Source: a virus. From it: DNA of 46,648 bases. A program made the translations under genes and the position numbers. Under the pieces are notes generated by a model. It was not told the origin of the DNA, ran no database searches, and saw only the letters and a program-made list of their open reading frames with translations. The stretch is taken from positions 1 to 46,648 of the IMG/VR virus record IMGVR_UViG_3300009184_000072, one strand, 5' to 3'. Below, in pieces: positions 22,997-46,538 of the stretch (its first letter is position 1; every line of letters begins with the position of its first letter).

Positions 22997-23659
22997 CTAG
23001 GTGCATTCTGGAGCGTTTTTGATGGGTTTTGGAGCCTCTATTTTAACTGCCCCTACGGACAGAATGTTAGGATATGGCTGGGCAGATGTTCTTATCTGAT
23101 CCTCTGGATTACCCACATAAAGTGGTGTAAAGCCAGCCATCTCTAAAGTTGAGCATAAACCGCCTGCTGTAAAGTGGTGGAAGTGTTCGTTCTCTCGCCT
23201 GTGCTTCCAGCCCTTAAACCAATCATTCCCCAAGTTATGATACCACGGCAAGGAAACAAATATAAACCTACACTTCAAGCCCTGTAAAAATCCAACAATG
23301 TTCTCGTCTTCAATATGCTCAAGCGAATCAAAGAATGTTATCAGATCGTATCCGTTCTGTGTTGCAGACTCGACTTTCTTTATGCCTTCTGCCAATGGGT
23401 AGTCTGAAATATCATAACCAAAGCAGTTCCTTTGCATCTTATGACAATGTTTTAGGAAAGAGCCGTTGCCATATCCGAAGTCTAAAACAGACTTGAAGTC
23501 AAAAAGAGTGGATACCAAGTAGTAGCGAAGCTCCGACATTTTATCTGTGTGAGGGTACTTGTCGTATCTTTCTTGCGAGTAGCTCTTGTCGTAAACTGGA
23601 ATCTCGCCAGTTTTCTCGGTCTGATGTAAGTGTCCGTGGCAAATCTCTTTATAGCTCAA
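22997..23659 (-). CDS. SAM-dependent methyltransferase (class I)
   Basis: VLDFGYGNGSFLKHC (about residues 58-72) is the glycine-rich SAM-binding motif I, GYDISDYPLAEG carries the acidic residue of motif II, and DLITFFDSLEHIED is motif IV of small-molecule and sugar methyltransferases. HFHHFTAGGLCSTLEMAGF near the end is typical of the methyltransferase-12/23 group. The start is TTG; 23659 overlaps the upstream stop as TTGA, and an earlier TTG at 23680 is possible. With two glycosyltransferases upstream, it may cap a glycan. There is no DNA-methylase target domain. Confidence 0.75.
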   Translation of the reverse strand: MSYKEICHGHLHQTEKTGEIPVYDKSYSQERYDKYPHTDKMSELRYYLVSTLFDFKSVLDFGYGNGSFLKHCHKMQRNCFGYDISDYPLAEGIKKVESATQNGYDLITFFDSLEHIEDENIVGFLQGLKCRFIFVSLPWYHNLGNDWFKGWKHRRENEHFHHFTAGGLCSTLEMAGFTPLYVGNPEDQIRTSAQPYPNILSVGAVKIEAPKPIKNAPECT

Positions 23660-24333
23660 AGATAAACCCTCGTAGCCCAAGTGCCATAATCATCTTGTCC
23701 TCCGAATGATCCGTCTGCAATCCAATCGTATTGACCACGAACCGCAGAGGCTACAACCGCTGGAGATGAATTGATGCCTAGAAAGTTCTTTGCGTTTTTA
23801 ATGAGAGTAACCATCTCTGTAATAGTATTACAATGATGTCCCTTGCAAATCACAAGCCCTTCCGCAAGCTCCCTTGTCGGGCAAAGCACAAGCATCTTTT
23901 CCACCCCATATATCTGTAACGCTTTTTTAATTACCATCGTAGGCTCAATTCTGTTTACTTGGCTTATCCCAAACGGAGCAACAAGGTTATACTCCTCGGC
24001 TGGCTTGCTTTCTGGAAGTCTATCCAGAACGATCTTTTGACCAACAGCCTCCTCGCAAAATCCACCATATACAAACTTCTCCCACTTCATTCCGCTTTCC
24101 CTGTATTCATCATAAAGCCAAGGCCAAATCTGCCTATTAAAAACGAAGTCTATGTTTTCATACATCGCATCAATCGGCTTATGCTTAACATAGGATACGC
24201 AATTAAAAATATCCTTATATTCGTCCTTGCACTCAAGCAATACCTCATTCCCCTTGTCGTGAAAATGCTTTGCCAAAGGAAGCATCCTCAAAATGTCTCC
24301 AAGCCTTTCGTGATATTGAATTAGGATACGCAT
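23656..24333 (-). CDS. GT-B / heptosyltransferase-like glycosyltransferase (225 aa)
   Basis: MRILIQYHERLGDILRMLPL matches the N-terminal GDxLxxLP motif of the GT9 heptosyltransferase family, and the C-terminal part TITEMVTLIKNAKNFLGINS followed by SPAVVASA matches its sugar-nucleotide site (normally D.G..H.A). The protein is shorter than bacterial GT9 enzymes (about 320), so it is a minimal version. It overlaps the double glycosyltransferase upstream by 13 bases. Likely acts on a virion or host surface glycan. Confidence 0.65.
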   Translation of the reverse strand: MRILIQYHERLGDILRMLPLAKHFHDKGNEVLLECKDEYKDIFNCVSYVKHKPIDAMYENIDFVFNRQIWPWLYDEYRESGMKWEKFVYGGFCEEAVGQKIVLDRLPESKPAEEYNLVAPFGISQVNRIEPTMVIKKALQIYGVEKMLVLCPTRELAEGLVICKGHHCNTITEMVTLIKNAKNFLGINSSPAVVASAVRGQYDWIADGSFGGQDDYGTWATRVYL

Positions 24334-26009
24334 GGATTCCTTTGCTCAAATATCTTCTTGCCGATCTCGTAGTTTGAAACTGCATTGTGTTTTTTGAATA
24401 TCTCGTCCTGTGGTGCGTTTGTGAAGAATGGGTTATTGTGCTTAAAGACCAAATCCCTTGCTTGCACTTGAATATCCTTTGTTCTTGCCGTGAATTCATT
24501 ATCAGAAAAGATACCGCTACATTCTGCATATTCTGGTGCAAATAGATTTCCTCCTAAATGGTCTATGGTTGGCTTTGTGCAGATTGCTATGCAGAGAAGA
24601 TCGTCTGTGCGATGTCCGTCCGATACCGCAAGGACGGCAGGCTTTGTGGGGTCTGGCAGTCTCTTTCTAATTTCATCATCCCATCCCAGCGGAGGAACAA
24701 AATCATCGGACACTTGTACGATATACTTCCCCTTTGCTTGCTTGGCACAGGCATTCCAAGCACCCACACACTTTCCATTCGGAGTGATTATTTTTTCGTT
24801 TCCTCCGTACTCATCTGCATCTACATCTACCCCTAGAATGTGCTGAATCCTGTTGGGTTGCTTTGCCATCGCCAGCCAAGCCCATCTTGCACCTTGGAAG
24901 CCAGTAGGTCTTGCCGTTGCGTGGCACAATGTAATATCCACCTCGCCAAAGTTTTTGGCTTTGTCCTGTTGAAGAAACTCTACTAAATCGTTCTGTCCTA
25001 ATGCTCTCGCACATCTTTCATAAAGGTCTGGTGCTTCCCACTTGTAAATAGCATCCTTCGTAGTCCAGTAGGCAATATTGGGAATTGGAATTGAGCAAGC
25101 GGAGCGAGCAAGGGCAAGTGCCTCCATGTAGTGCTTTCGAGTGTAGTAGTCCTCGGCGATGTAGAATAATGCTTCAATTCTATGCGGAGCTAGTGCGTAG
25201 GCACGAAAAAGCTCCTCTCTTTTTAATACTGGGTCAGCAAGTGATCGGCCTATAATCGTATGACATTGAATGCGAAGAATGGGGTCAAGGGTGGCATCAG
25301 CTAATGCAGTTTTTGCGTGTTGCATCGCCTCATCGTACTTGCCAGATAAAAAGTATTCCTCTGCCTTGTAGAATCGAAATAAATAACTTTCACGAATAGT
25401 TTCGTCTAAAATCCTGTGATTTCTGGTTACGCTTGAGCCTTTGTGATCTAATGGTGCGTGAAGGATGAGCCCTGCGTGTGTTCCCATCGCCTTTGCGCCT
25501 TCTGTGGATGTAGGCTTTAGCTGTTCGTGGACTGGGTACTTCCACTTGAACTTTTTATTTCGAGTAATGCGTTCACGGACAGGACACAAGCCAGCAAGAG
25601 GAACAGAATAGCCAGCAAAGATGCAATCGTGGTCAGTTACTTTTTCACCGATAGCAAAGAAGGCTTTTTCTGCTCCATCTACAAGAACATCGTCAGCATC
25701 AAACCACATGCAAAACTCTTGCGTGCAAGCTTCGAGTGCCGTGTTTCGTGCGTCTGCAAAGTTATCAATATGCTCCCAATGACTGGCATCATCTTTGTTT
25801 TTATAAACTACTACTTTTGCTCCAAACTTTTTTCCGATCTCCTCAAGAATTGGAAGCCCTTCTTCTGTGTGCTTGCCCATCGCAGAGCAAAGCACGATCT
25901 CATCTGGCTTGAGTGCCTTGAAAGACTCCAAAGCTCTTGTGATATACTTAGATGCACACTCCCTAGAAACGATAGCGTAAAGGGATAGGGTGAATGGGAA
26001 TCTGTCCAT
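24321..26009 (-). CDS. Two-domain GT2 glycosyltransferase with TPR-like linker (562 aa)
   Basis: The N-terminal GT-A domain reads LYAIVSRECASKYITRALES, then HIDNFADARNTALEACTQEF and MWFDADDVLVDG, with the DxD-type metal site in DADD. Residues about 205-330 are helical repeats of TPR type (EYFLSGKYDEAMQHAKTAL and AEDYYTRKHYMEALALARSA). A second GT-A-like domain follows, from DITLCHATARPTGFQGARWA, with YIVQVSDDFVPPLGWDDEI as its acidic motif. Such large phage enzymes decorate capsid or tail proteins. It heads a three-gene glycan cluster with the GT9-like and methyltransferase genes. Confidence 0.75.
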   Translation of the reverse strand: MDRFPFTLSLYAIVSRECASKYITRALESFKALKPDEIVLCSAMGKHTEEGLPILEEIGKKFGAKVVVYKNKDDASHWEHIDNFADARNTALEACTQEFCMWFDADDVLVDGAEKAFFAIGEKVTDHDCIFAGYSVPLAGLCPVRERITRNKKFKWKYPVHEQLKPTSTEGAKAMGTHAGLILHAPLDHKGSSVTRNHRILDETIRESYLFRFYKAEEYFLSGKYDEAMQHAKTALADATLDPILRIQCHTIIGRSLADPVLKREELFRAYALAPHRIEALFYIAEDYYTRKHYMEALALARSACSIPIPNIAYWTTKDAIYKWEAPDLYERCARALGQNDLVEFLQQDKAKNFGEVDITLCHATARPTGFQGARWAWLAMAKQPNRIQHILGVDVDADEYGGNEKIITPNGKCVGAWNACAKQAKGKYIVQVSDDFVPPLGWDDEIRKRLPDPTKPAVLAVSDGHRTDDLLCIAICTKPTIDHLGGNLFAPEYAECSGIFSDNEFTARTKDIQVQARDLVFKHNNPFFTNAPQDEIFKKHNAVSNYEIGKKIFEQRNPCVS

Positions 26010-30097: not shown

Positions 30098-30348
30098 TTG
30101 AAGTCCACTTTCTTTACCCCACCTGACTGAAGAAGGGTTGCCATCTTCTCCTCAATCATTCCCCTGCATTTCATCAAAGCCTTGAGCTCGCAGTCTGCGT
30201 AGATCGCCTTCGGCCATATCTTCTGCCACCGCCTATTGAATATGTGCCAAAGGCTCTGACCCTTCAGCTTTTTTGAGTCTCCAATCTCTACGGCATGGGC
30301 ACAGGTAAATAATTCCTTCGCTTCCTTGGGCATTTTAATGACGATCAT
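30094..30348 (-). CDS. Hypothetical protein (84 aa)
   Basis: Not recognised. ATG 30348 overlaps the amidotransferase-like stop as ATGA. It is basic with a Trp-rich centre (QSLWHIFNRRWQKIWPKAIY) and a C-terminal helix (ALMKCRGMIEEKMATLLQSG). It probably belongs to the amidoligase unit. Confidence 0.55.
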   Translation of the reverse strand: MIVIKMPKEAKELFTCAHAVEIGDSKKLKGQSLWHIFNRRWQKIWPKAIYADCELKALMKCRGMIEEKMATLLQSGGVKKVDFK

Positions 30349-31136
30349 TTTCCAACCCCTATTCTCGTCAAAGTCTCACCGAGAGACAAAAGCCCTTGCG
30401 ATCTTTGAACCGCCCTGCGAACCATTGAGTGTTTCAAGTTAGGAGTTATGCCCAGCTTGCTGAAGCCAGCCAAGTGTTTTTCAGCTTGCCGTTCCAAGCG
30501 GTCATCTTCTTCAAGCACCTCACAGGCTTCGTCAAAAAGCGAAACCCCCTTGTACGAGGAGTAGGTTTGCGTGTACTTGGGCTTCCAATCCCAATGCATA
30601 TTCGAGTACCAGTTGCCATCGGTATGCTTCGTCCAACCACCATTGAACATGAACGCTCCCTCGCTATCCAAGACACAGAACTTACCGCCCATCTTGGACA
30701 GAGCATTCCGTCCAGAAACGGCAACGACAAGTGCCGAGGCTCTGGAGTCGGAGAACTCGCCATCAACTTCGATTCCGTTACGCTTTAGAACGGAGGCGAG
30801 GACGCTGTTCCAATCAGACCAAGTTCCGTTGTGGAAAAGCACCGAGTCGCTTTGCCCTTGGAGAGATTGCGATGGGCGAGGGCTGATGGGGAACGGATGG
30901 CAGAGGACTGGCTTCACACCGCCGACAGTTGCGATGCGGAAGTGGGCTACGACCGCACCACCCTTCGTCTGCATAATATCGTGGATGAATTCGGCATCGA
31001 CTCCCTTGCGGAAAGTCGGCTTGCCGTTTTCAAGCCACGCTACGCCACCGCCGTCACGATTGCTACGCTCGCAACGCTTGAGGGTTTCGAGGGTCGGGCG
31101 GTTTTTCTTGCTGGGACTTATTACGATTACGCACAT
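30345..31136 (-). CDS. Class-II glutamine amidotransferase-like Ntn hydrolase (263 aa)
   Basis: Met1 is followed by Cys2, the N-terminal nucleophile of the class. The expected motifs follow in order: RDGGGVAW, VVAHFRIATVG (the G/A-H-x-R-x-A-T signature), CHPFPI, LFHNGTWSDW (the HNG motif) and FSDSRASAL. These proteins release ammonia from glutamine or cleave amide bonds. The last 80 residues are a charged helical region without known function. It lies 35 bases downstream of the amidoligase gene, so the pair may make and break or amidate a small peptide. No synthetase domain is fused. Confidence 0.75.
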   Translation of the reverse strand: MCVIVISPSKKNRPTLETLKRCERSNRDGGGVAWLENGKPTFRKGVDAEFIHDIMQTKGGAVVAHFRIATVGGVKPVLCHPFPISPRPSQSLQGQSDSVLFHNGTWSDWNSVLASVLKRNGIEVDGEFSDSRASALVVAVSGRNALSKMGGKFCVLDSEGAFMFNGGWTKHTDGNWYSNMHWDWKPKYTQTYSSYKGVSLFDEACEVLEEDDRLERQAEKHLAGFSKLGITPNLKHSMVRRAVQRSQGLLSLGETLTRIGVGK

Positions 31137-31171
31137 ATTGTTTTTTCTTTCTTGGTTGGTTGTTTGGTTGG

Positions 31172-32176
31172 TTAGACTGAACCTCTCACATGGGACTGCC
31201 AGAGGGGGGTCGACATCAGTTCAACGGCTTGGTCAACGGCGATGTAGCAATGGCCACGCTCGGAGGCGACAGGGAGCGAACCATTTTTCAACCGATCAAA
31301 CCAAGCACAGGAGGCGTATCCCCAGTTGAACATCGAGCGAGAGAACCGCTTGAGTGTGGGGAAGAAGTTAGTGATGTCCCTGCGGGAACGCCAAGCCCAG
31401 ATGGTGCGGAAGAGTTCGGAGGCAAGAGTCCGCTCGATTCTGCGGGAGCTAGACCAGTTGGGGATGTTGGCTCGGTTGGCTTCTTGGCAAATCAAGAACA
31501 CGCTGGAGATGATGAGCATAATTTTGTTGGGGTTGAGAGTCGTGGAAAAACCACGGAACTCAATGCAACCAGTAGAGCGGAGTTTGGAGAAGTTGATGAG
31601 GGCGTACTTGCCGATGTTGATGTTGAGCGTTCCGTAATCTTTGGCTCGCTTGATTTCAGCGTCCAAGGTGCGGGAGGGGTGCAACGGACACCATTGGCTA
31701 CGATCTCTACGCTCGGCATTTTGTCCGTACAAAACAGGGGAGAGCTTGAATCCGAGCCGAGCTACCTTCTCGCACCAGTTCAAGATTTGGGCAGGGGAGG
31801 ACGAACCGCACGAAGTTCCAGCGTGAATCGTCACATGGATTCCACCTTGAGTCGAACCGCCCATCCGAATCGGACGCTTTGCTCCGATTGCCTTGAGGAA
31901 AGTGAGGAATTCGAGGATATGCTGGAGTCCTTGATCGCCCTTGAGGACAGGGGAGACAAACTCGCATTTTTTGAATCCGTCAGCCGTGCGAATCGAAGGG
32001 TCTTCATCCGCTTTCCAAGTTTCACCAGCGAAGCGGGGAGCTTGAACAACTTGGCCGTTGGAGAGAGTAACCTCGGTAACAGGGAGTCCGTTGCCGTGGT
32101 AGCCAATACGAATGGCGATGTTGGTGGGAATTTGAGTTTCGATCTCGATTCCGAAGGTCGTTTGGTTGTTTATCAT
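31172..32176 (-). CDS. Amidoligase (glutamine synthetase-fold, amidoligase_2 type, 334 aa)
   Basis: The N-terminus FGIEIETQIP is the hallmark strand of the GCS-like amidoligase family. WKADEDPSI, KCEFVSPVL, GGIHVTIHAG and INFSKLRSTGCIEFRGF are the remaining motifs that bind ATP-Mg and the two substrates. Such enzymes form amide or peptide bonds between a carboxylate and an amine; phage examples sit beside amidotransferases. ATG 32176 is chosen because a family-1 promoter ends seven bases before it, though the frame runs open to 32212. Substrate unknown; a small peptide, a virion protein or a modified base are all possible. Confidence 0.85.
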   Translation of the reverse strand: MINNQTTFGIEIETQIPTNIAIRIGYHGNGLPVTEVTLSNGQVVQAPRFAGETWKADEDPSIRTADGFKKCEFVSPVLKGDQGLQHILEFLTFLKAIGAKRPIRMGGSTQGGIHVTIHAGTSCGSSSPAQILNWCEKVARLGFKLSPVLYGQNAERRDRSQWCPLHPSRTLDAEIKRAKDYGTLNINIGKYALINFSKLRSTGCIEFRGFSTTLNPNKIMLIISSVFLICQEANRANIPNWSSSRRIERTLASELFRTIWAWRSRRDITNFFPTLKRFSRSMFNWGYASCAWFDRLKNGSLPVASERGHCYIAVDQAVELMSTPLWQSHVRGSV

Positions 32177-32212
32177 GGGAGTGAGTATGCCCTTTCCAAA
32201 CCCGCTTGGCAA
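32177..32212 (-). promoter_or_regulatory. Family-1 promoter of the amidoligase unit
   Basis: Minus strand: TTGCCA (32207-32212), 17-base spacer, CATACT (32184-32189), 7 bases, ATG at 32176. CCAA/TTGG repeats in the spacer and AATAAA upstream match the sites at 4348 and 5475. It gives this late-region unit an early-type promoter. Confidence 0.65.
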
Positions 32213-32282: not shown

Positions 32283-32303
32283 CCTTAAAATATTTATTTA
32301 AGG
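32283..32303 (-). terminator. AT-rich hairpin after the kinase-like gene
   Basis: CCTTAAA pairs with TTTAAGG around seven bases and TTATTTTT follows on the minus strand. The stem overlaps the kinase stop codon. It is a weak rho-independent terminator candidate that would separate the modification cassette from the amidoligase unit. Confidence 0.45.
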
Positions 32304-32857
32304 CAGAGGAAATTTACGATTTTTGACTGCTCTTCCAGCGTGGTATTGCTCATCCGAGTAACGAATGGAATTAGTTCTCTATCTTCCGCTATGTTTTTAT
32401 ACTTTGTATCTCTTCCCTTCAAGAAAGTTTCGGATTGATTTGAGCCTCTGGCTTTGTATCTTTTTTCTAGCATTTCTTTTGGTGCAGTTAAAATTAAGAT
32501 TCTTAACTTCGTGTCTGGAAGAACGGATAGGAACTTCAAGAAAGACGGCGTGAAAAGCCTATCCCCCTCAAACAATATATTCCTCTTCACATAGTGTACA
32601 AAGTCCTGTGCAGTTGGCTGGACTGCCATACTTAACTTGTCCGTTCCAGAGAACAATTCGTTCGTCTGGTACTTTCCCAAAATAAAAAGGTCGAGCATTT
32701 GGCTATACATACAAGGGATGGATTTAATCAGTCTGTTTTTAGATGCTGGCGGTGCTGGCTCTAGCGTCTGCCACTCGCCGTGAATCTCGATAAACTTCCG
32801 CATAAGCGTGGTTTTGCCAGTAGCGGGAGAGCCACCTATTGCCGTTATTGTTCTCAT
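32294..32857 (-). CDS. P-loop kinase of the 5-hydroxymethyl-dU DNA kinase type (187 aa)
   Basis: GGSPATGKTTLMRKFIEIHG is a Walker A loop. The central GTDKLSMAVQPTAQDFVHY and NILFEGDRLFTPSFL match the pattern I associate with phage 5-hydroxymethyluracil DNA kinases (GTDRLSMAVQP and LFEGDRLF). QSETFLKGRDTKYKNI near the end is also characteristic. These enzymes phosphorylate the hydroxymethyl group of 5-hmdU in DNA. ATG 32857 overlaps the upstream AADT-like stop as ATGA; a TTG at 32872 would add five residues. Adjacent to an AADT-like gene as in thymidine-hypermodifying phages. Confidence 0.75.
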   Translation of the reverse strand: MRTITAIGGSPATGKTTLMRKFIEIHGEWQTLEPAPPASKNRLIKSIPCMYSQMLDLFILGKYQTNELFSGTDKLSMAVQPTAQDFVHYVKRNILFEGDRLFTPSFLKFLSVLPDTKLRILILTAPKEMLEKRYKARGSNQSETFLKGRDTKYKNIAEDRELIPFVTRMSNTTLEEQSKIVNFLCLK

Positions 32858-33843
32858 CTTTCGTTTAGCCAATCCAGCCGATTGATTTGACCAGAGTTAT
32901 CCTTGGATATAAATGAGTAGCCCCTCTTGTCGATACCTTTTTTGGAGACTAGCCTCTTGTCCAAGGTTTCATTCCTCGCCTGCCATAGAACTTTCCACTC
33001 GATTCCAGACCATCCATCGCCGTCTGCCTTGCTGATTTCTTCTGCCTGCCTGTCGAGATAGTATCCTAGATACCTTCCGTGATGGTTTCTGAACAACTTT
33101 TTGTATGAGCAGAGGCAAGTTTCCATCGAAAAAGGGTCTGCATGCTTGGCTACATCTGGAAATCTCTGCCTTGTTTCGAGTAGAATCTGATTGCTTTCTG
33201 ATTCCAGCGAGTTGTATTCCATTGGCGTTAGCCTTGAATTGCACCTATCGTCCTGTCCCAACGCAAGAATAAGGCCATTTCTGTGCGATTTTGAGCCATC
33301 GTAGTCGTTTAGCATCAGTCCTGTGGGGTAAATATCCAAACTAGCCGTCTGCTTTAGGTGCTGTAGGTAAAACCAAGTCGAGTATCTGCCGAACTTATGC
33401 AGGCTATTCTTCACCCCATTCCAGAGGCTAGTAAAGGATTCGGATTCGTTTGATCCTAGAAAGCTAGTTATTCTCTCTCTCTGCGTCTTTGCACCTATGA
33501 ACTTTTTATACGAAGCGAACATAGACGGCAAGTGCCCCTTGTTCCACTTGGTGTCTGTTTGGTATCTCAGTCTCTTGTAGTTCTTTTGATTCCACTCCTC
33601 TATTCTGGACTCCGTGGCAAGCTCGAAGTCTGGAAATTCATTCATCAGAACCCAAGCCGTGGGTAGGTTGTATGTGTTTCCGTACAGCCAGCACAGCCAA
33701 AGCCTCTGCTCGTCATTGTGTTCGTATCTTTTGTTGATGTAGTTCGTCATCCAAACGGCAGGGTCGCAATCCAAGAACCGCAAAGACCAAGCGTACCATC
33801 TTATGAATCCCTCTCGCCTATTCGCTTTCTCGTATAGGTTCAT
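32854..33843 (-). CDS. Amino acid:DNA transferase-like protein (AADT / alpha-glutamyl-thymine pyrophosphorylase type, 329 aa)
   Basis: The N-terminal half is RWYAWSLRFLDCDPAVWMTN, then NDEQRLWLCWLYGNTYNLPT with AWVLMNEFPDFEL, and later RLRYQTDTKWNKGHLPSMFA. This matches my recollection of the phage family first described as alpha-glutamyl/putrescinyl thymine pyrophosphorylases and later shown to transfer an amino acid onto phosphorylated 5-hmdU. The C-terminal half (SLDIYPTGLMLNDYDGSKSH onward) is typical of the same group in having an HhH-glycosylase-like helical core. ATG 33843 overlaps the upstream GNAT stop as ATGA. Recognition is from memory of motifs, so moderate confidence. Confidence 0.6.
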   Translation of the reverse strand: MNLYEKANRREGFIRWYAWSLRFLDCDPAVWMTNYINKRYEHNDEQRLWLCWLYGNTYNLPTAWVLMNEFPDFELATESRIEEWNQKNYKRLRYQTDTKWNKGHLPSMFASYKKFIGAKTQRERITSFLGSNESESFTSLWNGVKNSLHKFGRYSTWFYLQHLKQTASLDIYPTGLMLNDYDGSKSHRNGLILALGQDDRCNSRLTPMEYNSLESESNQILLETRQRFPDVAKHADPFSMETCLCSYKKLFRNHHGRYLGYYLDRQAEEISKADGDGWSGIEWKVLWQARNETLDKRLVSKKGIDKRGYSFISKDNSGQINRLDWLNER

Positions 33844-34457
33844 TTCTGGAAAAGTGCGTTGCGTAGCCAGAAGCTTCCAGCCTTGGCGATTGCGGTGTTT
33901 ACTTCCTCTAGCTTCTTCTGACTGAACTTGTGTCCCTCTATGGTTTCTAATGCAAGTTTTTTGCACACCTTCGGGCTGGGAATTCCGATGATCGGATGCT
34001 TTACGCAAGCATCTCGATAGTCCTTCTGCTCTTGAACTGTCTGGAATATTCTTTGATCCGACCTCAGAGAGCCAGTTGGATCAACACCCCAGAACACAAG
34101 TCCGTTTCTAATGTGCCAAGTCAGCGATGACGGAGTGCAAGACAGCTTTAACCTTTTGCATTTTTTCTCCAAGCACGAATACCTTATGAACTCCCGCCAC
34201 AGCAAAGACGCATACCCTTTCCCCTCGTTGCCCTGCGTAGTCACTATCTCGTATAGATTCACATACTCGTCTCGGTTGTATGTGCAGAAAATGACAGAAA
34301 CTATCTTACCATCGACCTCAAGACCAAGCGGGGGATTCTTTTTGTAGTTCTCGAATCTCTTCCAAAGGCTGTGTGAGTTAGACAGGAACTTGGTATTATC
34401 ACCAGATGGCGATGAATTTAGCGTGGAAACTACTGAATTCTCACTTAACAGCTTCAT
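33840..34457 (-). CDS. GNAT-fold acyltransferase-like protein (205 aa)
   Basis: VDGKIVSVIFCTYNRDEYVN and the following YEIVTTQGNEGKGYASLLWR hold the GNAT strands and motif A (QGNEGKGYA) that binds acyl-CoA; RLKLSCTPSSLTWHIRNGLV is the motif B region with the usual (W/Y)xxxG(F/V) ending. The last 80 residues are basic and helical, possibly for DNA binding. It is locked between the amidotransferase (17-base overlap) and the AADT-like gene (ATGA), so it likely acts on the same product, for example by acylating an amine on the base. Mom-type base modification enzymes also use a GNAT fold. Confidence 0.7.
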   Translation of the reverse strand: MKLLSENSVVSTLNSSPSGDNTKFLSNSHSLWKRFENYKKNPPLGLEVDGKIVSVIFCTYNRDEYVNLYEIVTTQGNEGKGYASLLWREFIRYSCLEKKCKRLKLSCTPSSLTWHIRNGLVFWGVDPTGSLRSDQRIFQTVQEQKDYRDACVKHPIIGIPSPKVCKKLALETIEGHKFSQKKLEEVNTAIAKAGSFWLRNALFQK

Positions 34458-35139
34458 AGTTTATTTGTAGGTCAGTTGATATTGCACCAGAATCTTCCTC
34501 GGTTATGCAGAGGCTTTTGTCTGCCTTGTAATAGACATTTGGTTTGGCTCTTTCGATCTCCTCCGAGATGCCAGCCCTCTTGAGAATGTCTGCAGTTGAG
34601 GATACAAAGATGTTATTTTCCAAGCGACAAAAGTAAAGTGGCCTTTTTCCGTTGCGGTAGAACCTTATATGCCCCTCTGGGTATAGCTCACAGCAGGCTA
34701 TCGAGGCATTTTCCCACTTTTTGAGAGGGTTTTTCCCATCGAGAATAGATTTTAGAAGAAGCTCTGTGTCGTTTCTTGTTTCGCAATCGTAGCCATATAA
34801 TTGCTTCCAGCTTTCCGCAGGCTCTTGGGTGATAACTCCGTTGTGTGCCACGGATAGTGCGTCCGTGGATATGGGCTGGTTAAAGTTTAAGTCGCTTGTC
34901 GAATACCTACAATGCCCGATAAGTGCTAGGTTTTTGTTTTTGTCGAGGTAACTAGGAAAGTTTAGCTGAAAGTTGTCTGCTTTTTCTGGAGTTTTCTCCG
35001 TGAATACTTTTCCGTCTCTTGCATAGGAGATTCCAGTAGCGTGTAGCCCCCTTATTTGGGACTGATTAAATATGTTTCTTAAAAGTTGAAAGTCTGTAAA
35101 GCTAGGATTAACGCACAACGCACCTACTACAGAACACAT
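34441..35139 (-). CDS. Class-II glutamine amidotransferase (232 aa)
   Basis: MCSVVGALCVNPSFTDFQLL puts the nucleophile at Cys2. RGLHATGISY matches the RGxDSxG loop, IGHCRYSTSD the GHxRxST motif, SVAHNGVITQ the HNG motif, and RNDTELLLKSI the SDTE-like loop. This is a stand-alone glutaminase domain as in GlmS or asparagine synthetase. It would produce ammonia from glutamine, or transfer nitrogen, for its coupled neighbours. It begins two bases after the stop of the 54-residue gene. Confidence 0.8.
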   Translation of the reverse strand: MCSVVGALCVNPSFTDFQLLRNIFNQSQIRGLHATGISYARDGKVFTEKTPEKADNFQLNFPSYLDKNKNLALIGHCRYSTSDLNFNQPISTDALSVAHNGVITQEPAESWKQLYGYDCETRNDTELLLKSILDGKNPLKKWENASIACCELYPEGHIRFYRNGKRPLYFCRLENNIFVSSTADILKRAGISEEIERAKPNVYYKADKSLCITEEDSGAISTDLQINYEAVK

Positions 35140-35141
35140 CC

Positions 35142-35306
35142 TTACAGCTTAATAGGCTTGCCGTTATAGGAAAAGCTTTTTTCTTTAGCTATCTTTGCCT
35201 TAATTCTTTCTAGTACCGATGGCTTTTTCTTCATTTCTGCCACCTCCTGCTCGGTTAGGGTCTTATATTCGTCATCGTCCATTCGTTGTTCGATTTGATT
35301 GCTCAT
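35142..35306 (-). CDS. Small charged protein (54 aa)
   Basis: ATG 35306 overlaps the stop of the ADP-ribosyltransferase gene as ATGA, and TAA lies two bases before the amidotransferase start. The product is MSNQIEQRMDDDEYKTLTEQ, then a Lys/Ala helix (PSVLERIKAKIAKEK) and a short SFSYNGKPIKL end. Not recognised; the tight fit supports expression with both neighbours. Confidence 0.6.
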   Translation of the reverse strand: MSNQIEQRMDDDEYKTLTEQEVAEMKKKPSVLERIKAKIAKEKSFSYNGKPIKL

Positions 35307-37876
35307 TTTACGATCTCTGCCTCGATTAGCGTGTGATAAACAAATTTATCTTCTCCTTTAAGAACTGATGCGACAGGAAGTTCCTTTCTGGTAACAGATG
35401 TAATTCTTAGCGGTGTTTCTGGACGAAGCAATACTTCTTTTTCCTTTAGAAATGAGGACGAAAAAGATGGCATCTTTACTCCGACTCCATCAGCATTTTT
35501 GACTTTAATTAAGACCTTAGAGCCGTAGTATTTTCTTCCCTCTGTTCTTCCCTGCATTGTTTTTTCATCCCAGTTGGAAAATTCTTCTGCGATTGTTTTG
35601 TCCAGAGAAAAAGAAGAGAATCCAAAGTCACTTATATTTTCACCTACCTTTGCAGTTTTGGCGAGCTTGTGTGCTTTGCTTTCGCTTAATGGCCTGTCTA
35701 TATTTGTTTTAATTCCTCTCCATATTTCACTCTGTTTAATTTTAGGAGCTAAAACTAGTGCGGTTTCCATTAAAGCAGCCATTTGAAGAGCCTCTAGGTC
35801 TGGAGAATCTGATTTTCTACTCAAGTCTCCCATATCACGCAAGGATTTATTTACCTCTCTGTGTCCGTCTCCAGCATATTTGTGAAGGCTTTTTGCGATT
35901 TCAACTGCTTCTTCTTTGTCCACATTGTTTTCAGCAAATGATTTTGACCATCCTACTACATCCTGCTTGTATTCCTCGTCGTGTTCTCCGAGTGTATGCT
36001 CTCTTTTAGGTGGACCAATAACTTGCATAAATTCTAGTGCGTACCCTTGCTCTGTTGGATTTAGTTCTTTTTCGATAGCTTTGGCCTGCGTTAATTCTTC
36101 CTCAGAAATTCCCATTGGGGAAATTGGCATATTCTCGTCCTCATCGTAGATCGGCATTCCTTGTTCTGGCTCATTAGCCACAGCAGTACCTCCACCGCCT
36201 GTCCACTTTCCGCTTGAATCCCTATCTTGCGAGGGGTCATAGAATGAAATGATCTCAAATCTCTCCTTGCCCTCAATGGCTTCCTCAATCGAGACACGGA
36301 GAACATCTGCCAGATAGGATACGACATCGTCTATGGGCGGTTGATTAACTTGAAGCTTGATCGTCTGAACAAAAGCTTGCATCGGCTTTACTCCGATCTT
36401 TTCCCTAATCTTGTTAGATATTGCCCTTCCGACTCCCTTGCCACGATATTCCTTTGCCACTTGGTCGAACATTCCCCTCGTTGCAGAAGCTCCTGCAAGA
36501 TAAGGAACAACTGCTGGATTTACTAGCCCACCAATAAGGATTTTATATCTGTCATTGTTTATGCCCCGAATCGCCCCGATTGCTCCTGCTCCGATAACAC
36601 GAAGGGCATCGCCTGCTGTGTTTAGAAACTCCTTCCCCTCGCTACTTCCGAGCCACTTTTTAATCTCTGCCGTTTTTGTAGCTCCATACTTCCCTGCAAT
36701 TTTCGCTCCACGGACTCCCTTGATGATTGTATTCACCCCATTTTTTACTGCCTCGCTTGCCACATCTGCCTTGGGATTTTGGGATTTTATTCTTTCGATA
36801 AACTTTCCTTCGGCTGATGCTCCGCTTCCAGCCCACTTCCCAGATTCGTCACGCTCTTGGCTTGGGTCGTAAAGAAGCGTTGCTCCTTGTTCCTTTAGTG
36901 ATAATAGGTCGGCTTTTAGCTGTTCGAGATTTGTCTTATCCGTAATCGGACCACCCACAATCCAAGCATCGCAAGTCCGAAGCGAGGCACACTTAAAGTC
37001 GAATATCTCACAAAATCCAAGGTCGCCAGCCTGCTCGACTTCCTTGGCATCCATTCCTATGCCTTTTGTAATACAATCAATAAGTTTGCTTGTTTGATTG
37101 AAGCCAGCACAATTCCCGCATCGCATCGTCTTGGCTTCTTCCACAGACCCCTTGAAAATGTTTGCCTTCGTTTTCCAGTAGTCCTCATTCGGCTCTTTGG
37201 GATTGGCTGGACCATAGTGTGCTATATCAATAGCTTCCTGCCTGTTCGCTAGGTTCGCTTTAATGTCCTGCGTCTCAACTGGACATTCCCCCTCTTCGAG
37301 ATTTGTTAGTTCGGATTCGTCAATAAGAATTGGAACAAAGATAGTTCCTTCTTCGAGATTTTTAACTGCGATAGGCTTTGGCTTTTCGCCTCCTTCAAAA
37401 ATCCATTTTCTCACAGGCTTTGCGTCAAATATCATCATCTTTTTAATTGCAGATGGCAATACTTCTTTTTCAGATAGGAATACTTTATATGGGTCTTTGT
37501 CTCTTTTTTCCTCATACACACTTTTGAATCCAGATGCTACGACCTCAACAATTCCAAGAAGAACCTTCCCGCCTATTTTAGTTGCCTGCGGTGCTTTTAG
37601 GCATCCATATTCTAGTGCTAGTCTTTGATTATCTGTTGCGTAAACGCCTTTGCCGTGAACTCCATCTCTGGATGGCTTCAGCCCTGCTTCTCTAATTTTA
37701 CCAAGAACATCGGCAGTTGTTCCGTGGTAAACAGTTGTTGTTCCGCTTAGACTTTCCTTGCCCTCTCCTCCGCTACCAGTCCACTTGCCAGAGCTGTCCC
37801 TAGCTTGGCTATCATCGTAAAACTCAATCTTTTTTGAGTTGTAAGAAAACTGGGTCACGGAGCTATTCTCCGTCAC
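35303..37876 (-). CDS. Virion protein with two ADP-ribosyltransferase domains (857 aa)
   Basis: Domain 1, residues about 45-160: VYHGTTADVLGKIREAGLKP (His51), GKGVYATDN (Tyr79), FLSEKEVLP (Glu136/138), a PARP/Tpt1-like H-Y-E set. Residues 253-302 hold six cysteines (MRCGNCAGFN, GFCEIFDFKC, RTCDAW), a motif seen in phage internal proteins. Domain 2, about 600-857: EIWRGI (Arg720), FGFSSFSLDK (Ser755, Ser757), LKEKEVLL (Glu812, Glu814), the R-S-ExE set of arginine-modifying toxins. Three copies of a YDxSQxRDxSGKWxGxG tag (residues 19, 335, 545) separate the parts. GTG 37876 overlaps the portal stop by 14 bases. T4 injects related Alt to modify host proteins; injection with DNA is a likely use here. 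Confidence 0.75.
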   Translation of the reverse strand: MTENSSVTQFSYNSKKIEFYDDSQARDSSGKWTGSGGEGKESLSGTTTVYHGTTADVLGKIREAGLKPSRDGVHGKGVYATDNQRLALEYGCLKAPQATKIGGKVLLGIVEVVASGFKSVYEEKRDKDPYKVFLSEKEVLPSAIKKMMIFDAKPVRKWIFEGGEKPKPIAVKNLEEGTIFVPILIDESELTNLEEGECPVETQDIKANLANRQEAIDIAHYGPANPKEPNEDYWKTKANIFKGSVEEAKTMRCGNCAGFNQTSKLIDCITKGIGMDAKEVEQAGDLGFCEIFDFKCASLRTCDAWIVGGPITDKTNLEQLKADLLSLKEQGATLLYDPSQERDESGKWAGSGASAEGKFIERIKSQNPKADVASEAVKNGVNTIIKGVRGAKIAGKYGATKTAEIKKWLGSSEGKEFLNTAGDALRVIGAGAIGAIRGINNDRYKILIGGLVNPAVVPYLAGASATRGMFDQVAKEYRGKGVGRAISNKIREKIGVKPMQAFVQTIKLQVNQPPIDDVVSYLADVLRVSIEEAIEGKERFEIISFYDPSQDRDSSGKWTGGGGTAVANEPEQGMPIYDEDENMPISPMGISEEELTQAKAIEKELNPTEQGYALEFMQVIGPPKREHTLGEHDEEYKQDVVGWSKSFAENNVDKEEAVEIAKSLHKYAGDGHREVNKSLRDMGDLSRKSDSPDLEALQMAALMETALVLAPKIKQSEIWRGIKTNIDRPLSESKAHKLAKTAKVGENISDFGFSSFSLDKTIAEEFSNWDEKTMQGRTEGRKYYGSKVLIKVKNADGVGVKMPSFSSSFLKEKEVLLRPETPLRITSVTRKELPVASVLKGEDKFVYHTLIEAEIVK

Positions 37877-40061: not shown

Positions 40062-40991
40062 TTATTTTCTATACCAAGTATCCGATGTTTTTTCGCTCCA
40101 AACTTCCGCAATTTCATTGATTGCATCTGCTAGGTTCTCAAAGTAGCCAGCGTTTTGGCTTACTGCTTTAGAGCTACTTTTAGATATTTGCCGTGAAATG
40201 GATTGAACTTTATCTGAAGCTCTGCCAAGAAGCTCATAAAACTTGTGAGGCTGATCTTGCCTTGCTTGATCAATAGCTTCCATTACGGATTCAACCCTAT
40301 CCAGAGCATCGGATATTGCAGGCTCATCATCTTCTCCAGTAACATTCTTTAATGCTCTTTCATGGTGATCTTGAATAACTTTTATAACATCTGTTTTGTT
40401 GGTAAGGATTTGTTCTTGGGCATCTGTTACAAATGATGTTCCGCTTTTATTCGATCCGTATTCCCCCGCACCACCCGCCCACCTTCCAGACTCATCCCTA
40501 GCTTGGGTTGGGTCGTAAAAGTTAATAGCCTTATCAAGCATTCCGATAACCTCTTGAATTTCTTCCATTTTTTTCTTGCAACTTCCGCTTTCGTAAGGCT
40601 TCATACCAGCCACAGGCTCGTACCCCTCCCAGCATCTTCCCTCGTCTTTGCCCATTTCTTCCTTCGTGGCTTTCTTGCGGAGAAGGTCAATATTGTATCC
40701 AAGCTTCTGAATATACTGCATCGCATCGTCATAGTAGTGAGCAACGATGTTTGTGTCTGTGGTCGGAGGGATTTTGGTATTCACTTGGTAAGCCCGAGCG
40801 ATGGCTTCCTTCGGCTCTTTGACTAGTTCATCGTGAACCCGATAATATTCCTTCACATCTTCCTCGCTGGATGGATGCTCTGCCCTTGTGATTTTATGAG
40901 ATAAATCCATCAGTTGCTTGAAAAGACTGACGGCTTTGCTTGAAGAATCGAGCATTTCAATGGCTTTGTCGAGTAGGTTTAGAATATTCAT
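40062..40991 (-). CDS. Tagged virion protein of unknown function (309 aa)
   Basis: Helical and Lys/Glu-rich. Two recognisable segments: CWEGYEPVAGMKPYESGSC (about residues 120-138), a motif seen in other phage head proteins, and FYDPTQARDESGRWAGGAGE (residues 158-177), the same tag found three times in the 857-residue protein. The C-terminal third is helical (LLGRASDKVQSISRQISKSS). It lies between Dps-like and portal genes and begins after AAGGAG, so it is probably packaged in the head. Confidence 0.6.
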   Translation of the reverse strand: MNILNLLDKAIEMLDSSSKAVSLFKQLMDLSHKITRAEHPSSEEDVKEYYRVHDELVKEPKEAIARAYQVNTKIPPTTDTNIVAHYYDDAMQYIQKLGYNIDLLRKKATKEEMGKDEGRCWEGYEPVAGMKPYESGSCKKKMEEIQEVIGMLDKAINFYDPTQARDESGRWAGGAGEYGSNKSGTSFVTDAQEQILTNKTDVIKVIQDHHERALKNVTGEDDEPAISDALDRVESVMEAIDQARQDQPHKFYELLGRASDKVQSISRQISKSSSKAVSQNAGYFENLADAINEIAEVWSEKTSDTWYRK

Positions 40992-43718: not shown

Positions 43719-44278
43719 AGGGAAAGTATTGTCATGCTACTCATACTCTGCTTCTCACTTATAACTTTTACTTGATCCGAGTAAAGGATTTTCTCAGATT
43801 CCGTCTGACAAACCACCAGCCTAACAAATTTTAGGTAGTCAAATGCCCAATTTATTAGGGCGTCTTCCATTGGCATATTATTAAATACTATGTCTCTGGA
43901 TGGTGATTGCCTCCACAAATACAAAACTCCCTCTCTGGTTACATCGTAGGTTCTGGGAACTTCTGGGGCTATGCCAATCCAAGTCCGTGTATGGTAGTTT
44001 CCTAGCTTCTGAATGACCTCAAACGAGGCTTGGGGCGTAGAACCGCAGACTGTGATCGGAAATCCGTTGCTGCTTAAAAACTTCTTATTCGTTAAAAGTC
44101 TGCTTGTGTTTGGGGAGAAGTAATAAATATGCGGGATAAGTCCGTTATAAAAAGAATTCGCAGCTACAAGTTGAGTTTCTTTTGAGTGTTTTCCGTTAGG
44201 CTCTCCACAGCCTATGACGGCAACTTCGCTCCTAAGAGTAGACTGGTTGTCCTGCTCCTCTGATTCGCTTTTTGACAT
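43715..44278 (-). CDS. Unknown protein coupled to the TET/JBP gene (187 aa)
   Basis: Not recognised. The N-terminus is Ser/Glu-rich, then a Rossmann-like start (EVAVIGCGEPNGKHSKETQL), ITVCGSTPQASFEVIQKLGN, TWIGIAPEVPRTYDVTREGV and VRLVVCQTESE. The alternating strands and Gly turns suggest an alpha/beta nucleotide- or sugar-binding fold. It overlaps the TET/JBP gene by 47 bases and its stop overlaps the terminase start as ATGA, so it is made with both. A partner enzyme of the oxygenase is a plausible guess. Confidence 0.55.
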   Translation of the reverse strand: MSKSESEEQDNQSTLRSEVAVIGCGEPNGKHSKETQLVAANSFYNGLIPHIYYFSPNTSRLLTNKKFLSSNGFPITVCGSTPQASFEVIQKLGNYHTRTWIGIAPEVPRTYDVTREGVLYLWRQSPSRDIVFNNMPMEDALINWAFDYLKFVRLVVCQTESEKILYSDQVKVISEKQSMSSMTILSL

Positions 44279-45179
44279 TATCTAGTTCTTCCTTAGCAGT
44301 CCCGCACTTTAACATGTTCTCCCGATAGTAGAACACGCAACTGATTCTTTCGTGTGGGACACCCTCCTTGGGAACTAGAGGAGTGTTGCCGTGCCATTCG
44401 TGAACATCACATAAAATGACATCGCCAGTACGCATATCGCAAGCAACTCGATACTTTGGGAAAACAAGATAACAGCCAGCATATCCACCAGCGGAAAAGG
44501 CAGACATAACTCCGAAGCCCTCTGCCAAATCACCTTGGTCTTTGTGAACCGCAGTCTGCCAGTTCTTATTGACTGTGATGGTGGTAAAGACTGTATTGGG
44601 AATTACCCACTCTTGCGATGTGGAGTCACATTTTTCTTTCTGTGCTTTCCAGCGTTCGGGTACTTCTTTTTCAAAAACAGAGCTGATTGTTTGGATTAAG
44701 GGGATTGCCTTTGCGAATTTCTCTGGATTTGCGTTATTCCAAGAAGTTGTACGACAATAGGGGAATCTTGCGTTGCGATCCATAGATCCCATCACTCCCG
44801 ACAAAACAGGGATTGCTACGCTTGTTTTGCTGATTGTGCCGTCAGCCAGCATCCTTTGTGCCCTCACACCGAAGCCTTTGTTGGTTTTCGCACTTTTGAT
44901 CAGACCATACTGCTTTGCTTTCTCATCTGTGAGAATCCCGCCAGCCATTCCTCTGTTTTCGTTGGGGGTAGCAGCTGAGCGAACAGATTCGTATGATTTC
45001 TGGCATAGCTCGATAGGTAGTATGCCTTTGCGGAAACGCATCAGAAGTGTGCCGTCTGGCTTGTAAACCTCTGCATCCTCTTGGATGAGGTGGTCATAGC
45101 AGTTCTCAGGGAGATGTGTTCCCCCTAGTTTATCTACTTCCTCATCGGGCAGGCAAGTTTCCAGCTTGATAATCTTCAT
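44232..45179 (-). CDS. TET/JBP-family 2-oxoglutarate/Fe(II) oxygenase (315 aa)
   Basis: NTVFTTITVNKNWQTAVHKD, then QGDLAEGFGVMSAFSAGGYA with GCYLVFPKYRVACDMRTGDV, and LCDVHEWHGNTP match the phage TET/JBP oxygenase pattern. Iron ligands would be His212 and Asp214 (HKD) and His263 (HGN); Arg278 (HERIS) would bind 2-oxoglutarate. Known relatives hydroxylate the methyl of 5-methylcytosine or thymine in DNA. ATG 45179 has a TTGACA site 15 bases upstream. It sits between ParB-like and terminase genes. No C5-cytosine methyltransferase is seen here; the substrate could be thymine or a host-made 5mC. Confidence 0.75.
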   Translation of the reverse strand: MKIIKLETCLPDEEVDKLGGTHLPENCYDHLIQEDAEVYKPDGTLLMRFRKGILPIELCQKSYESVRSAATPNENRGMAGGILTDEKAKQYGLIKSAKTNKGFGVRAQRMLADGTISKTSVAIPVLSGVMGSMDRNARFPYCRTTSWNNANPEKFAKAIPLIQTISSVFEKEVPERWKAQKEKCDSTSQEWVIPNTVFTTITVNKNWQTAVHKDQGDLAEGFGVMSAFSAGGYAGCYLVFPKYRVACDMRTGDVILCDVHEWHGNTPLVPKEGVPHERISCVFYYRENMLKCGTAKEELDNVKKRIRGAGQPVYS

Positions 45180-45194
45180 TAACCTACTTTACCT

Positions 45195-45200
45195 TGTCAA
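45195..45200 (-). promoter_or_regulatory. TTGACA site 15 bases before ATG 45179
   Basis: Minus-strand TTGACA that includes the TGA stop of the ParB-like gene and runs into AGGTAAAG. One of ten such sites. Confidence 0.5.
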
Positions 45201-45868
45201 ACCTTGGGTGCAAGGTCTTGAAACGCTTTTTCAACGCAGGCTTTGATTGTGTCCGTTGCCGTTTCTGCTTTCCAAGTGTCTCCGAGCTTTCTGACTTTTT
45301 CGAGGAATCCATCGTGTTCCTCGTTTGTAAGATAGATTGGAACCATTCGGATTGAAGATGCGGGAGGAATATACTCGCCAGCGTCAATATCCCCTCCTCC
45401 AGCTTGAGCTTGCTCTGCATCCAAAGCCAATGGACCATCGGGAATTGTAGCGGACATAAGGCTCTTAAGGTTTTCATCTGAGAAGCCTGTAAGCTGAAGA
45501 TCGATCTGAGAAGTGTCAATATCTTCGAGCAAGTCTTTGAGAGCTTCCGTGTCGAACTCTCCAGCCATATTGTTAAGTGCGAGATTGGCTGCTTTTTCTT
45601 TTTCTTCAGAAAGGTCAACGAGCCAAACATCAATTTCTTCCCTTCCCATGGCTTGATAGATTTTGAATCTCTGGTGTCCTCCGATAATGGTATTTCCAGT
45701 TCGGACATTGACTGTGATTGGTTGCAGATCCCCAAGTTCGGAAAGACTCTTGGTGAGGCGACCAAGTGCCTCGTTGCTAATTTTTCGAGGATTGTATTCC
45801 GCACCCTTGATTTCATTTAGCTTGATCTTCCTAATGCACGGATAGCTAACTTCATTTTTCTTGCTCAT
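45197..45868 (-). CDS. ParB/Srx-like nuclease-fold protein (223 aa)
   Basis: KIKLNEIKGAEYNPRKISNE, then LGDLQPITVNVRTGNTIIGG followed by HQRFKIYQAMG show the ParB/Srx N-terminal fold with its GGHxR nucleotide-binding loop. AEQAQAGGGDIDAGEYIPPAS and the last 70 residues are an extra helical part. Phage ParB-like proteins often lie next to terminases or DNA-modification enzymes and may act as CTPases or nucleases. It overlaps the small terminase gene by 17 bases. Confidence 0.75.
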   Translation of the reverse strand: MSKKNEVSYPCIRKIKLNEIKGAEYNPRKISNEALGRLTKSLSELGDLQPITVNVRTGNTIIGGHQRFKIYQAMGREEIDVWLVDLSEEKEKAANLALNNMAGEFDTEALKDLLEDIDTSQIDLQLTGFSDENLKSLMSATIPDGPLALDAEQAQAGGGDIDAGEYIPPASSIRMVPIYLTNEEHDGFLEKVRKLGDTWKAETATDTIKACVEKAFQDLAPKV

Positions 45869-46523
45869 CTTCTAGTTTTACCTCTTTTTCTTTCCTTTCG
45901 TCAAGCAATTTTGTTTCTCCGAACGAACCTTTTGTTTTGTGGATAACTGCTATAACCTTTTCAATTCCCTCCGTTATAACTTCCTTGGCAAGTTCGGGGT
46001 CTGTGGGGTTTGCTCTGCGACAAAGGCTGGATGGCAAGCCTTCCATAAGGTTGCGAATCGTGGTCATGTATCGGGACATAATGCTACGAGCCAGATCCGT
46101 GCCAATTACCGCACCAGTTGCTCTCTGCAAACTCTCTACTTTCATCTCTGCGTCCAGTCGGCCACGCAAAGCCTCCCTGTGTGCCTTAACCAAGTTAGGT
46201 AGCCTAGCGTGATCTCTGTTTGCCTGTGCTTGGTGAAGCAGGGCATAAGCAACTTTTTCGCTTTGCTTGGATCTAGCCAGACAACCATATATATCGTCCC
46301 TTAATAAATCGCTCCCAGACGAACCCCCCGCCTCCGCTTCACTATCTTCCAACAAAACCCCCGCTGGCGGGGCTATAAAGCCCTTAGGAGGCCTTTCACG
46401 ATTGGCCTCACGCCATTCCGTAGCACCTTCGATTGTCTCTTGTGGCATGCCTTTTTGCTTAAGTTTGCTCACATAGCTGATGGAAGTGCCCCACGCTTGC
46501 GCAATTTCAGTTAAACTTACCAT
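45852..46523 (-). CDS. Small terminase subunit, Nu1-like (223 aa)
   Basis: ATG 46523 begins MVSLTEIAQAWGTSISYVSK, a helix-turn-helix of the Nu1/excisionase type that binds packaging sites, followed by LKQKGMPQ. The middle is helical (LLHQAQANRDHARLPNLVKA and AEMKVESLQRATGAVIGTDL), and the C-terminus is Lys/Glu-rich, as Nu1-like proteins have for contact with the large subunit. A TTG at 46529 is the only upstream alternative. It is the first complete gene of the packaging operon. Confidence 0.75.
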   Translation of the reverse strand: MVSLTEIAQAWGTSISYVSKLKQKGMPQETIEGATEWREANRERPPKGFIAPPAGVLLEDSEAEAGGSSGSDLLRDDIYGCLARSKQSEKVAYALLHQAQANRDHARLPNLVKAHREALRGRLDAEMKVESLQRATGAVIGTDLARSIMSRYMTTIRNLMEGLPSSLCRRANPTDPELAKEVITEGIEKVIAVIHKTKGSFGETKLLDERKEKEVKLEDEQEK

Positions 46524-46538
46524 TTCCAAGAAGTTTTA

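Follow-up and report, generated by a model that had tools for sequence, protein, structure and literature searches.

A glutamine amidotransferase gene within a predicted thymidine hypermodification cassette of uncultured phages

We have analysed the 46,648 nt viral record IMGVR_UViG_3300009184_000072 (referred to at its full length as the window), which carries a cassette of four overlapping genes encoding a class II glutamine amidotransferase (GATase), a GNAT acyltransferase, a member of the amino acid:DNA transferase (AADT) family and a P-loop kinase. The families, the fold of the AADT, the gene order and the co-conservation of these genes are established here. Together with a TET/JBP-type dioxygenase encoded elsewhere in the window, they very probably specify a pathway of post-replicative thymidine hypermodification. 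The GATase consistently accompanies this gene set in related viral contigs from the environment and was not found with it in the isolated phages that were searched. The full reading that we favour, and regard as fairly likely, is that the pathway is of this class, with the GATase as a core component that would supply ammonia to the AADT and with subsequent acylation by the GNAT.

The cassette genes and their protein families

The four open reading frames are all on the minus strand, within 32294-35139, and in the series GATase-GNAT-AADT-kinase they overlap by 17, 4 (ATGA) and 4 (ATGA) bases. They are listed here with the dioxygenase gene.

34441..35139, minus strand: GATase, class II, a stand-alone glutaminase domain (232 aa; Met-Cys2, HNG at 99-101; PF13522)
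33840..34457, minus strand: GNAT acyltransferase (205 aa; QGNEGKGYA; PF00583)
32854..33843, minus strand: AADT (329 aa from the ATG at 33843; PF18724)
32294..32857, minus strand: P-loop kinase, a predicted 5-hydroxymethyldeoxyuridine (5-hmdU) DNA kinase (187 aa; GSPATGKTT P-loop, GTDKLSMAVQP, LFEGDRLF)
44232..45179, minus strand: TET/JBP-type 2-oxoglutarate/Fe dioxygenase (315 aa; PF12851)

A preliminary description of this DNA had reported the four genes, and the reading frames, overlaps and motifs that it quoted were all found in the translations. The cassette stands as described, but the TET/JBP gene was overlooked, as were genes for a ParB-like protein, an Amidoligase_2-type protein and a second GATase-like protein (see below). 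The dN/dS ratio is 0.01-0.13 for each of the four genes in comparison with close relatives (95-99% protein identity); all four are under purifying selection and are kept as proteins. Because these ratios are low and many unrelated contigs carry homologous genes arranged in this order, the four-gene set is not due to chance.

The AADT matches PF18724 with an E value of 7.1e-21 and 75.4 bits (curated cut-off 26.2). Sequence searches of the PDB with the AADT and with the GATase gave no useful match and a fold search was therefore needed, for which an AlphaFold2 model of the AADT was used (predicted template modelling score, pTM, 0.77). The top matches were 8z2n (8z2n_B, Z 16.8) and 8z2m (Z 16.1), structures of the 5-phosphomethyl-dU (5-PmdU) glycinyltransferase gp46 of phage PaMx11. 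Over both structures 253-255 residues are aligned at 12% identity, and for 8z2n_B the root-mean-square deviation is 4.1 over 255 residues. The next fold families, queuosine-salvage enzymes and helix-hairpin-helix DNA glycosylases, gave Z scores of 11.3 and 10. PaMx11 gp46 itself belongs to PF18724. Profile comparison of the AADT with gp46 as a single sequence gave no signal, so the relatedness of the two proteins rests on the common Pfam family and fold. Taken together, the data support the earlier assignment of this protein to the AADT family; transferase activity is predicted from the profile and the model.

The GATase matches PF13522 (E 5.9e-9, 36.5 bits, cut-off 27), and residues Cys2, R78, H99-N100-G101 and N123-D124 are invariant in an alignment of 32 relatives. 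The GNAT matches PF00583 (E 2.3e-4, 21.9 bits, cut-off 20.7) and contains the acyl-CoA loop motif QGNEGKGYA. With both profiles above their cut-offs and the Cys2/HNG and QGNEGKGYA motifs in place, the earlier naming of these two proteins is borne out. There are two GNAT subtypes in the alignment, and that of the window is the subtype of cassettes in which no amidoligase separates GATase from GNAT.

The kinase is closest to PF18751 (P-loop nucleotide kinase 3), which it matches at 25.8 bits against a cut-off of 27. The kinases of two relatives, L007 and L008 (42-48% identity), score 35.2 and 55.6 bits for this family, and the kinase of Mycobacterium phage Prince, which there comes after TET/JBP and AADT, is a full match. 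As in Prince, the kinase of the window directly follows the AADT. It has no match up to E 1 to the tested 5-hmdU DNA kinase (HMUDK) families PF18748 and PF18723, the first of which is matched weakly by PaMx11 gp49 and the second strongly by gp50. When the 187- and 329-residue proteins were checked against HMUDK and AADT profiles, the AADT was matched and the HMUDK was not. The preliminary description of the kinase as HMUDK-like can thus apply to its role at best and not to its family; we predict that it is a 5-hmdU DNA kinase from outside the tested Pfam families.

The TET/JBP protein matches PF12851 (Tet_JBP; E 1.7e-22, 79.9 bits, cut-off 34.9), and the Fe-binding motif, HxD (HKD) and a distal His (WHGN), can be read in its sequence. 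We predict that it converts thymine in DNA into 5-hydroxymethyluracil by oxidation. As the window carries a TET/JBP, like the gene sets of Prince and of Rhodococcus phage Tonitrus, the source of its 5-hydroxymethyl-dU should act in DNA and not at the nucleotide level. There was no match to C5-cytosine methylase (PF00145) or to thymidylate synthase (PF00303) in 16 cassette-bearing records (the window and fifteen others, 40 to 164 kb), and this favours thymine as the TET substrate.

Conservation of the gene set and its variants

A single-sequence scan of IMG/VR with the AADT gave seven loci; alignment scans gave 559 AADT loci and, separately, 415 GATase loci. The closest 80 loci per scan were fetched and clustered at 90% identity, and the counts concern these closest relatives, not all AADTs. 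TET and GATase are both upstream in all 28 AADT clusters having at least 4.5 kb of upstream sequence, and the AADT is downstream in 30/30 GATase clusters having at least 4 kb downstream. The kinase is downstream in 23 of 24 AADT clusters. TET, which in most relatives is directly upstream of the GATase, lies within 2.5 kb upstream in 35/38 GATase clusters; the window, with its TET at a distance of 9 kb, is one of the three in which it does not. In one relative (L008, 63% AADT identity) TET/JBP, GATase, GNAT, AADT and kinase run uninterrupted, and another (L007) has amidoligase, GNAT, ParB-like protein, AADT and kinase. An enzyme that makes 5-hmdU, a kinase and an AADT-type transferase therefore occur together in the window and in the survey, and the 28/28 and 30/30 counts agree with the earlier proposal that GATase and GNAT belong with the AADT-kinase pair.

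Among the matches listed for 50,697 phage records, none exceeds about 30% identity for this AADT subfamily or 31% for this GATase. No relative turned up when 84,980 prokaryote genomes were scanned with the AADT alignment, so no prophage or host is linked to the subfamily. A text search of the literature found nothing joining a glutamine amidotransferase to thymidine hypermodification, though a prior listing in the core papers of the pathway is possible; the closest work that it found concerns amide ligases for 5-carboxymethylcytosine (PMC12783734) and Gat-QueC for deoxyarchaeosine (PMC6884629). Some existing labels in these families look misleading: PHROG 800, the kinase family, is named 'terminase small subunit' and PHROG 6059, a TET/JBP family, 'queuine tRNA-ribosyltransferase', and isolated phage records annotate TET as 'SNF2 DNA repair protein' and AADT as 'DNA glycosylase'.

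The cassette occurs in three variants, the first of which is that of the window.

V1: TET, GATase, GNAT subtype A, AADT, kinase
V2: TET, GATase, amidoligase, GNAT subtype B, AADT, kinase
V3: TET, GATase, amidoligase, low-molecular-weight (LMW) phosphatase, AADT, kinase

Each of the 126 loci with GATase and AADT (not dereplicated) has either a GNAT (105 loci) or an LMW phosphatase-like protein (PF01451; 21 loci), and none has both. An amidoligase lies between GATase and GNAT or AADT in 48/126. This cassette amidoligase has almost no Pfam signal, and the best fold matches of its model (pTM 0.84) include YbdK, glutamate-cysteine ligase and glutamine synthetase, with Z scores of about 10. About half of the dereplicated clusters keep the GATase and have no cassette-family amidoligase, which was not found in V1 records of 163, 126 and 110 kb; the GATase thus seems to be independent of an ATP-dependent ligase. 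Some V3 loci encode an extra 362-aa protein that is GT-B glycosyltransferase-like by eye. In L131 (3692-6187), L073, L139 and L083 this protein, a divergent amidoligase and the LMW phosphatase-like protein (CX5R intact) are located between GATase and AADT and replace the GNAT. In addition, seven loci (L011 11020-12447 and six others) encode a radical SAM protein (PF04055) between the AADT and the kinase, and in 14 loci a 242-aa protein with no Pfam match (L130 5332-6057) is encoded between GNAT and AADT.

The window itself has two further genes of this kind.

31172..32212, minus strand: Amidoligase_2-type protein, a predicted ATP-dependent COOH-NH2 ligase (346 aa; PF12224; PHROG 2443)
30345..31136, minus strand: second, divergent class II GATase-like protein (263 aa; Met-Cys start; weak PF13230/PF13522)

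The amidoligase matches PF12224 at 23.8 bits (cut-off 22) and the PHROG 2443 amidoligase with E 1.1e-13, and at this place it occurs only in the window's own close relatives. Matches of the second GATase-like protein to PF13230 and PF13522 are weak (E 0.005) and below cut-off. Comparison of the window amidoligase with the cassette amidoligases by hhalign was weak, with one common IEFR-type motif, and we do not claim that they are orthologous. It is possible that the window amidoligase is a tailoring enzyme, or that it belongs to a separate module. The adjoining pair (30345-32212), seen in the close relatives only, could represent either a module in its own right, like those of LUZ24/phiEco32, or one more step of tailoring.

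Predicted pathway and alternatives

The order of reactions is taken from the known pathway. In phage DNA, TET/JBP would first turn thymine into 5-hydroxymethyl-dU by oxidation; the P-loop kinase would convert this to 5-phosphomethyl-dU, and the AADT would exchange the phosphate for an amine. Most likely, the GATase would hydrolyse glutamine and hand ammonia to the AADT to give 5-aminomethyl-dU in one step. The GNAT would then acylate the new amine, and the amidoligase, where present, would extend 5-aminomethyl-dU. We infer ammonia as the nucleophile and 5-aminomethyl-dU as the direct product because the GATase seems to require no ATP-dependent ligase and because 5-phosphomethyl-dU is the sole activated acceptor in sight. 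Taken by itself, the transfer of ammonia from GATase to AADT is put forward tentatively, with a little less than even confidence. The GATase step would take the place of the glycine transferase and FAD-dependent oxidoreductase of PaMx11, and TET that of its thymidylate synthase homologue. The end product could plausibly be acetylated aminomethyl-dU, among other possibilities, and this modification is not necessarily new. More speculatively, the class II glutaminase and the AADT may form an ammonia-dependent DNA-aminating enzyme, from whose common product, 5-aminomethyl-dU, uncultured phages might make at least three thymine adducts using separate tailoring sets (GNAT; amidoligase and GNAT; amidoligase and LMW phosphatase, in some with a glycosyltransferase-like gene).

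Several points weigh against the pathway as drawn. The whole mechanism is predicted, and the score of the kinase is just under its Pfam cut-off. No fusion of the GATase to AADT or TET was found among the surveyed loci, where just two proteins, an AADT and a GNAT, were called over-long, and the GATase-AADT partnership consequently rests on gene order. In Caulobacter phage Cr30, TET, AADT and a kinase of this type occur with no GATase near them; the GATase therefore belongs to one AADT subfamily and is not required by every AADT. The amidoligase and second GATase of the window could mean that the ammonia goes elsewhere. Finally, the absence of a methylase is not firm: the fast pre-filtered search behind it failed to detect several GATases known to be present (PF13522), and the 16 records are fragments or possibly so.

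The alternative that survives best, which we nevertheless consider unlikely, is that the AADT adds an amino acid (glycine, glutamate or glutamine, for example), that the GATase, with or without the amidoligase, amidates its carboxylate or trims DNA-bound glutamine, and that the GNAT caps the remaining amine. Members of the AADT family do add amino acids. An amidoligase intervenes between GATase and GNAT or AADT in the 48 loci counted above, with another just downstream in the window, and the modelled protein resembles YbdK, glutamate-cysteine ligase and glutamine synthetase. Furthermore, glutamine-hydrolysing ligases have been proposed to act on 5-carboxymethylcytosine in other phages (PMC12783734). 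However, amide formation requires activation by ATP, and the amidoligase-free cassettes show no enzyme for it; these make up half of the dereplicated clusters, including the 163, 126 and 110 kb records, and still keep the GATase.

It is improbable that TET acts on 5-methylcytosine and that the product of the cassette is a cytosine hypermodification. Some phage TETs do adjoin C5-cytosine methylases, for instance in Methylophilales phage Melnitz-3, whose TET is followed by a kinase with 32% identity to that of the window, but none of the 16 cassette-bearing records gave a methylase match, Prince has TET-AADT-kinase with no adjoining methylase, and the AADT fold is that of an enzyme acting on 5-phosphomethyl-dU. 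The least probable of the alternatives, with very little in its favour, is that GATase, GNAT and amidoligase are an unrelated LUZ24-/phiEco32-like module lying by chance beside hypermodification genes, since although Pseudomonas phage tf groups amidoligase, GATase and ATP-grasp genes without AADT or TET, GATases of the tf type are only 25-31% identical and part of longer proteins, and the closest GATase relatives have AADT downstream (30/30) and TET upstream (35/38).

A GATase acting with the AADT would add a glutamine-dependent branch to thymidine hypermodification, present in hundreds of environmental viral contigs and in none of the isolated phages searched. The analysis names a small enzyme set that is suited to co-expression. 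If the ammonia step is correct, the set would provide a compact enzymatic route to a primary amine, a handle for further chemistry, on thymine in DNA. Tailoring genes are also exchanged around a constant core, which would help to explain how phages diversify their DNA, probably as a way of evading restriction.

Related systems and other genes of the window

The PaMx11 operon has the order AADT gp46, FAD oxidoreductase gp47, acetyltransferase gp48, kinase genes and thymidylate synthase homologue gp51. Like the window, it has an AADT-family transferase of the same fold, a GNAT and a P-loop kinase in short clustered genes. In contrast with the window, which has a TET/JBP, PaMx11 makes 5-hmdU by way of the thymidylate synthase homologue; the window has a class II GATase and no FAD enzyme where PaMx11 has an FAD-dependent oxidoreductase, and the kinase families differ. 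The FAD enzyme reportedly releases 5-aminomethyl-dU from the glycine adduct, after which the acetyltransferase is said to cap the product. Neither a PaMx11-type FAD enzyme nor a thymidylate synthase homologue was found near the AADT in the surveyed cassettes.

Prince has the order ParB-TET-AADT-kinase-large terminase. It and its relatives share with the window TET/JBP as the source of 5-hmdU, the transferase and a ParB neighbour; Prince itself also has an adjoining terminase, as in the window, and a kinase of PF18751, the family nearest to the kinase of the window. The annotated neighbours in Prince include neither GATase nor GNAT nor amidoligase, and its AADT is only about 25% identical to that of the window. 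Tonitrus is reported to have a set of ParB, TET-like protein, aGPT-Pplase2 and 5-hmU kinase (PMC11955845), and resembles the window in its TET-type source of 5-hmdU, its transferase and its ParB. CmoA-CmoX-CmoY of Synechococcus phage S-B43 also hypermodifies phage DNA with an amide ligase, and some relatives have a glutamine-hydrolysing domain; unlike the window, this system uses cytosine, a carboxymethyl handle (5-carboxymethylcytosine) and an asparagine-synthetase-type ligase, and has no TET, AADT or kinase (PMC12783734). In phage 9g an amidotransferase likewise builds a modified DNA base, but this is deoxyarchaeosine, a 7-deazaguanine, and the amidotransferase is fused to QueC (Gat-QueC; PMC6884629). 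The module of the LUZ24-like phage tf and of phiEco32 has an amidoligase and a class II GATase adjacent to each other, like 30345-32212 of the window, but without AADT, TET or such a kinase alongside. This amidoligase/GATase module of LUZ24-like and phiEco32-like phages, reportedly described by Iyer et al. in 2009, has been proposed to act on the cell wall or on peptides.

In Melnitz-3 (L160 4010-8090) the row of genes is a C5-methylase, TET/JBP, a 427-aa protein with no assigned function and the kinase, with no AADT. It possibly makes phosphorylated 5-hydroxymethylcytosine or a kinase-dependent cytosine adduct.

Two further genes of the window lie next to TET.

45197..45868, minus strand: ParB-like protein (223 aa; PHROG 620 ParB-like, E 2.3e-38)
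45852-46529: probable small terminase gene, preceding the ParB-like gene

TET adjoins the terminase region, in the order probable small terminase, ParB-like protein, TET/JBP, one gene with no assigned function and large terminase; the other four genes are between the portal and major capsid genes. Late action had been suggested from this position within the head operon. That argument is weak and we reject the position as a sign of late expression, as most relatives have the cassette beside genes for a gp41-like helicase, a UvsX-like protein and other T4-like replication proteins.

Downstream of the capsid genes, at 22997-26009 (minus strand), a methyltransferase (PF13489) and a family 2 glycosyltransferase (PF00535) are close together, with no evidence tying them to the cassette. 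An 857-aa protein (35303-37876, minus strand) has stretches that resemble PARP/ART, none of which reaches the cut-off, and the motif FYDPSQxRDSSGKWTGxGG occurs in it three times; it is a candidate injected ADP-ribosyltransferase. One further copy of the motif, which is possibly a tag for capsid cargo or processing, is in a 309-aa protein near the portal (40062-40991, minus strand).

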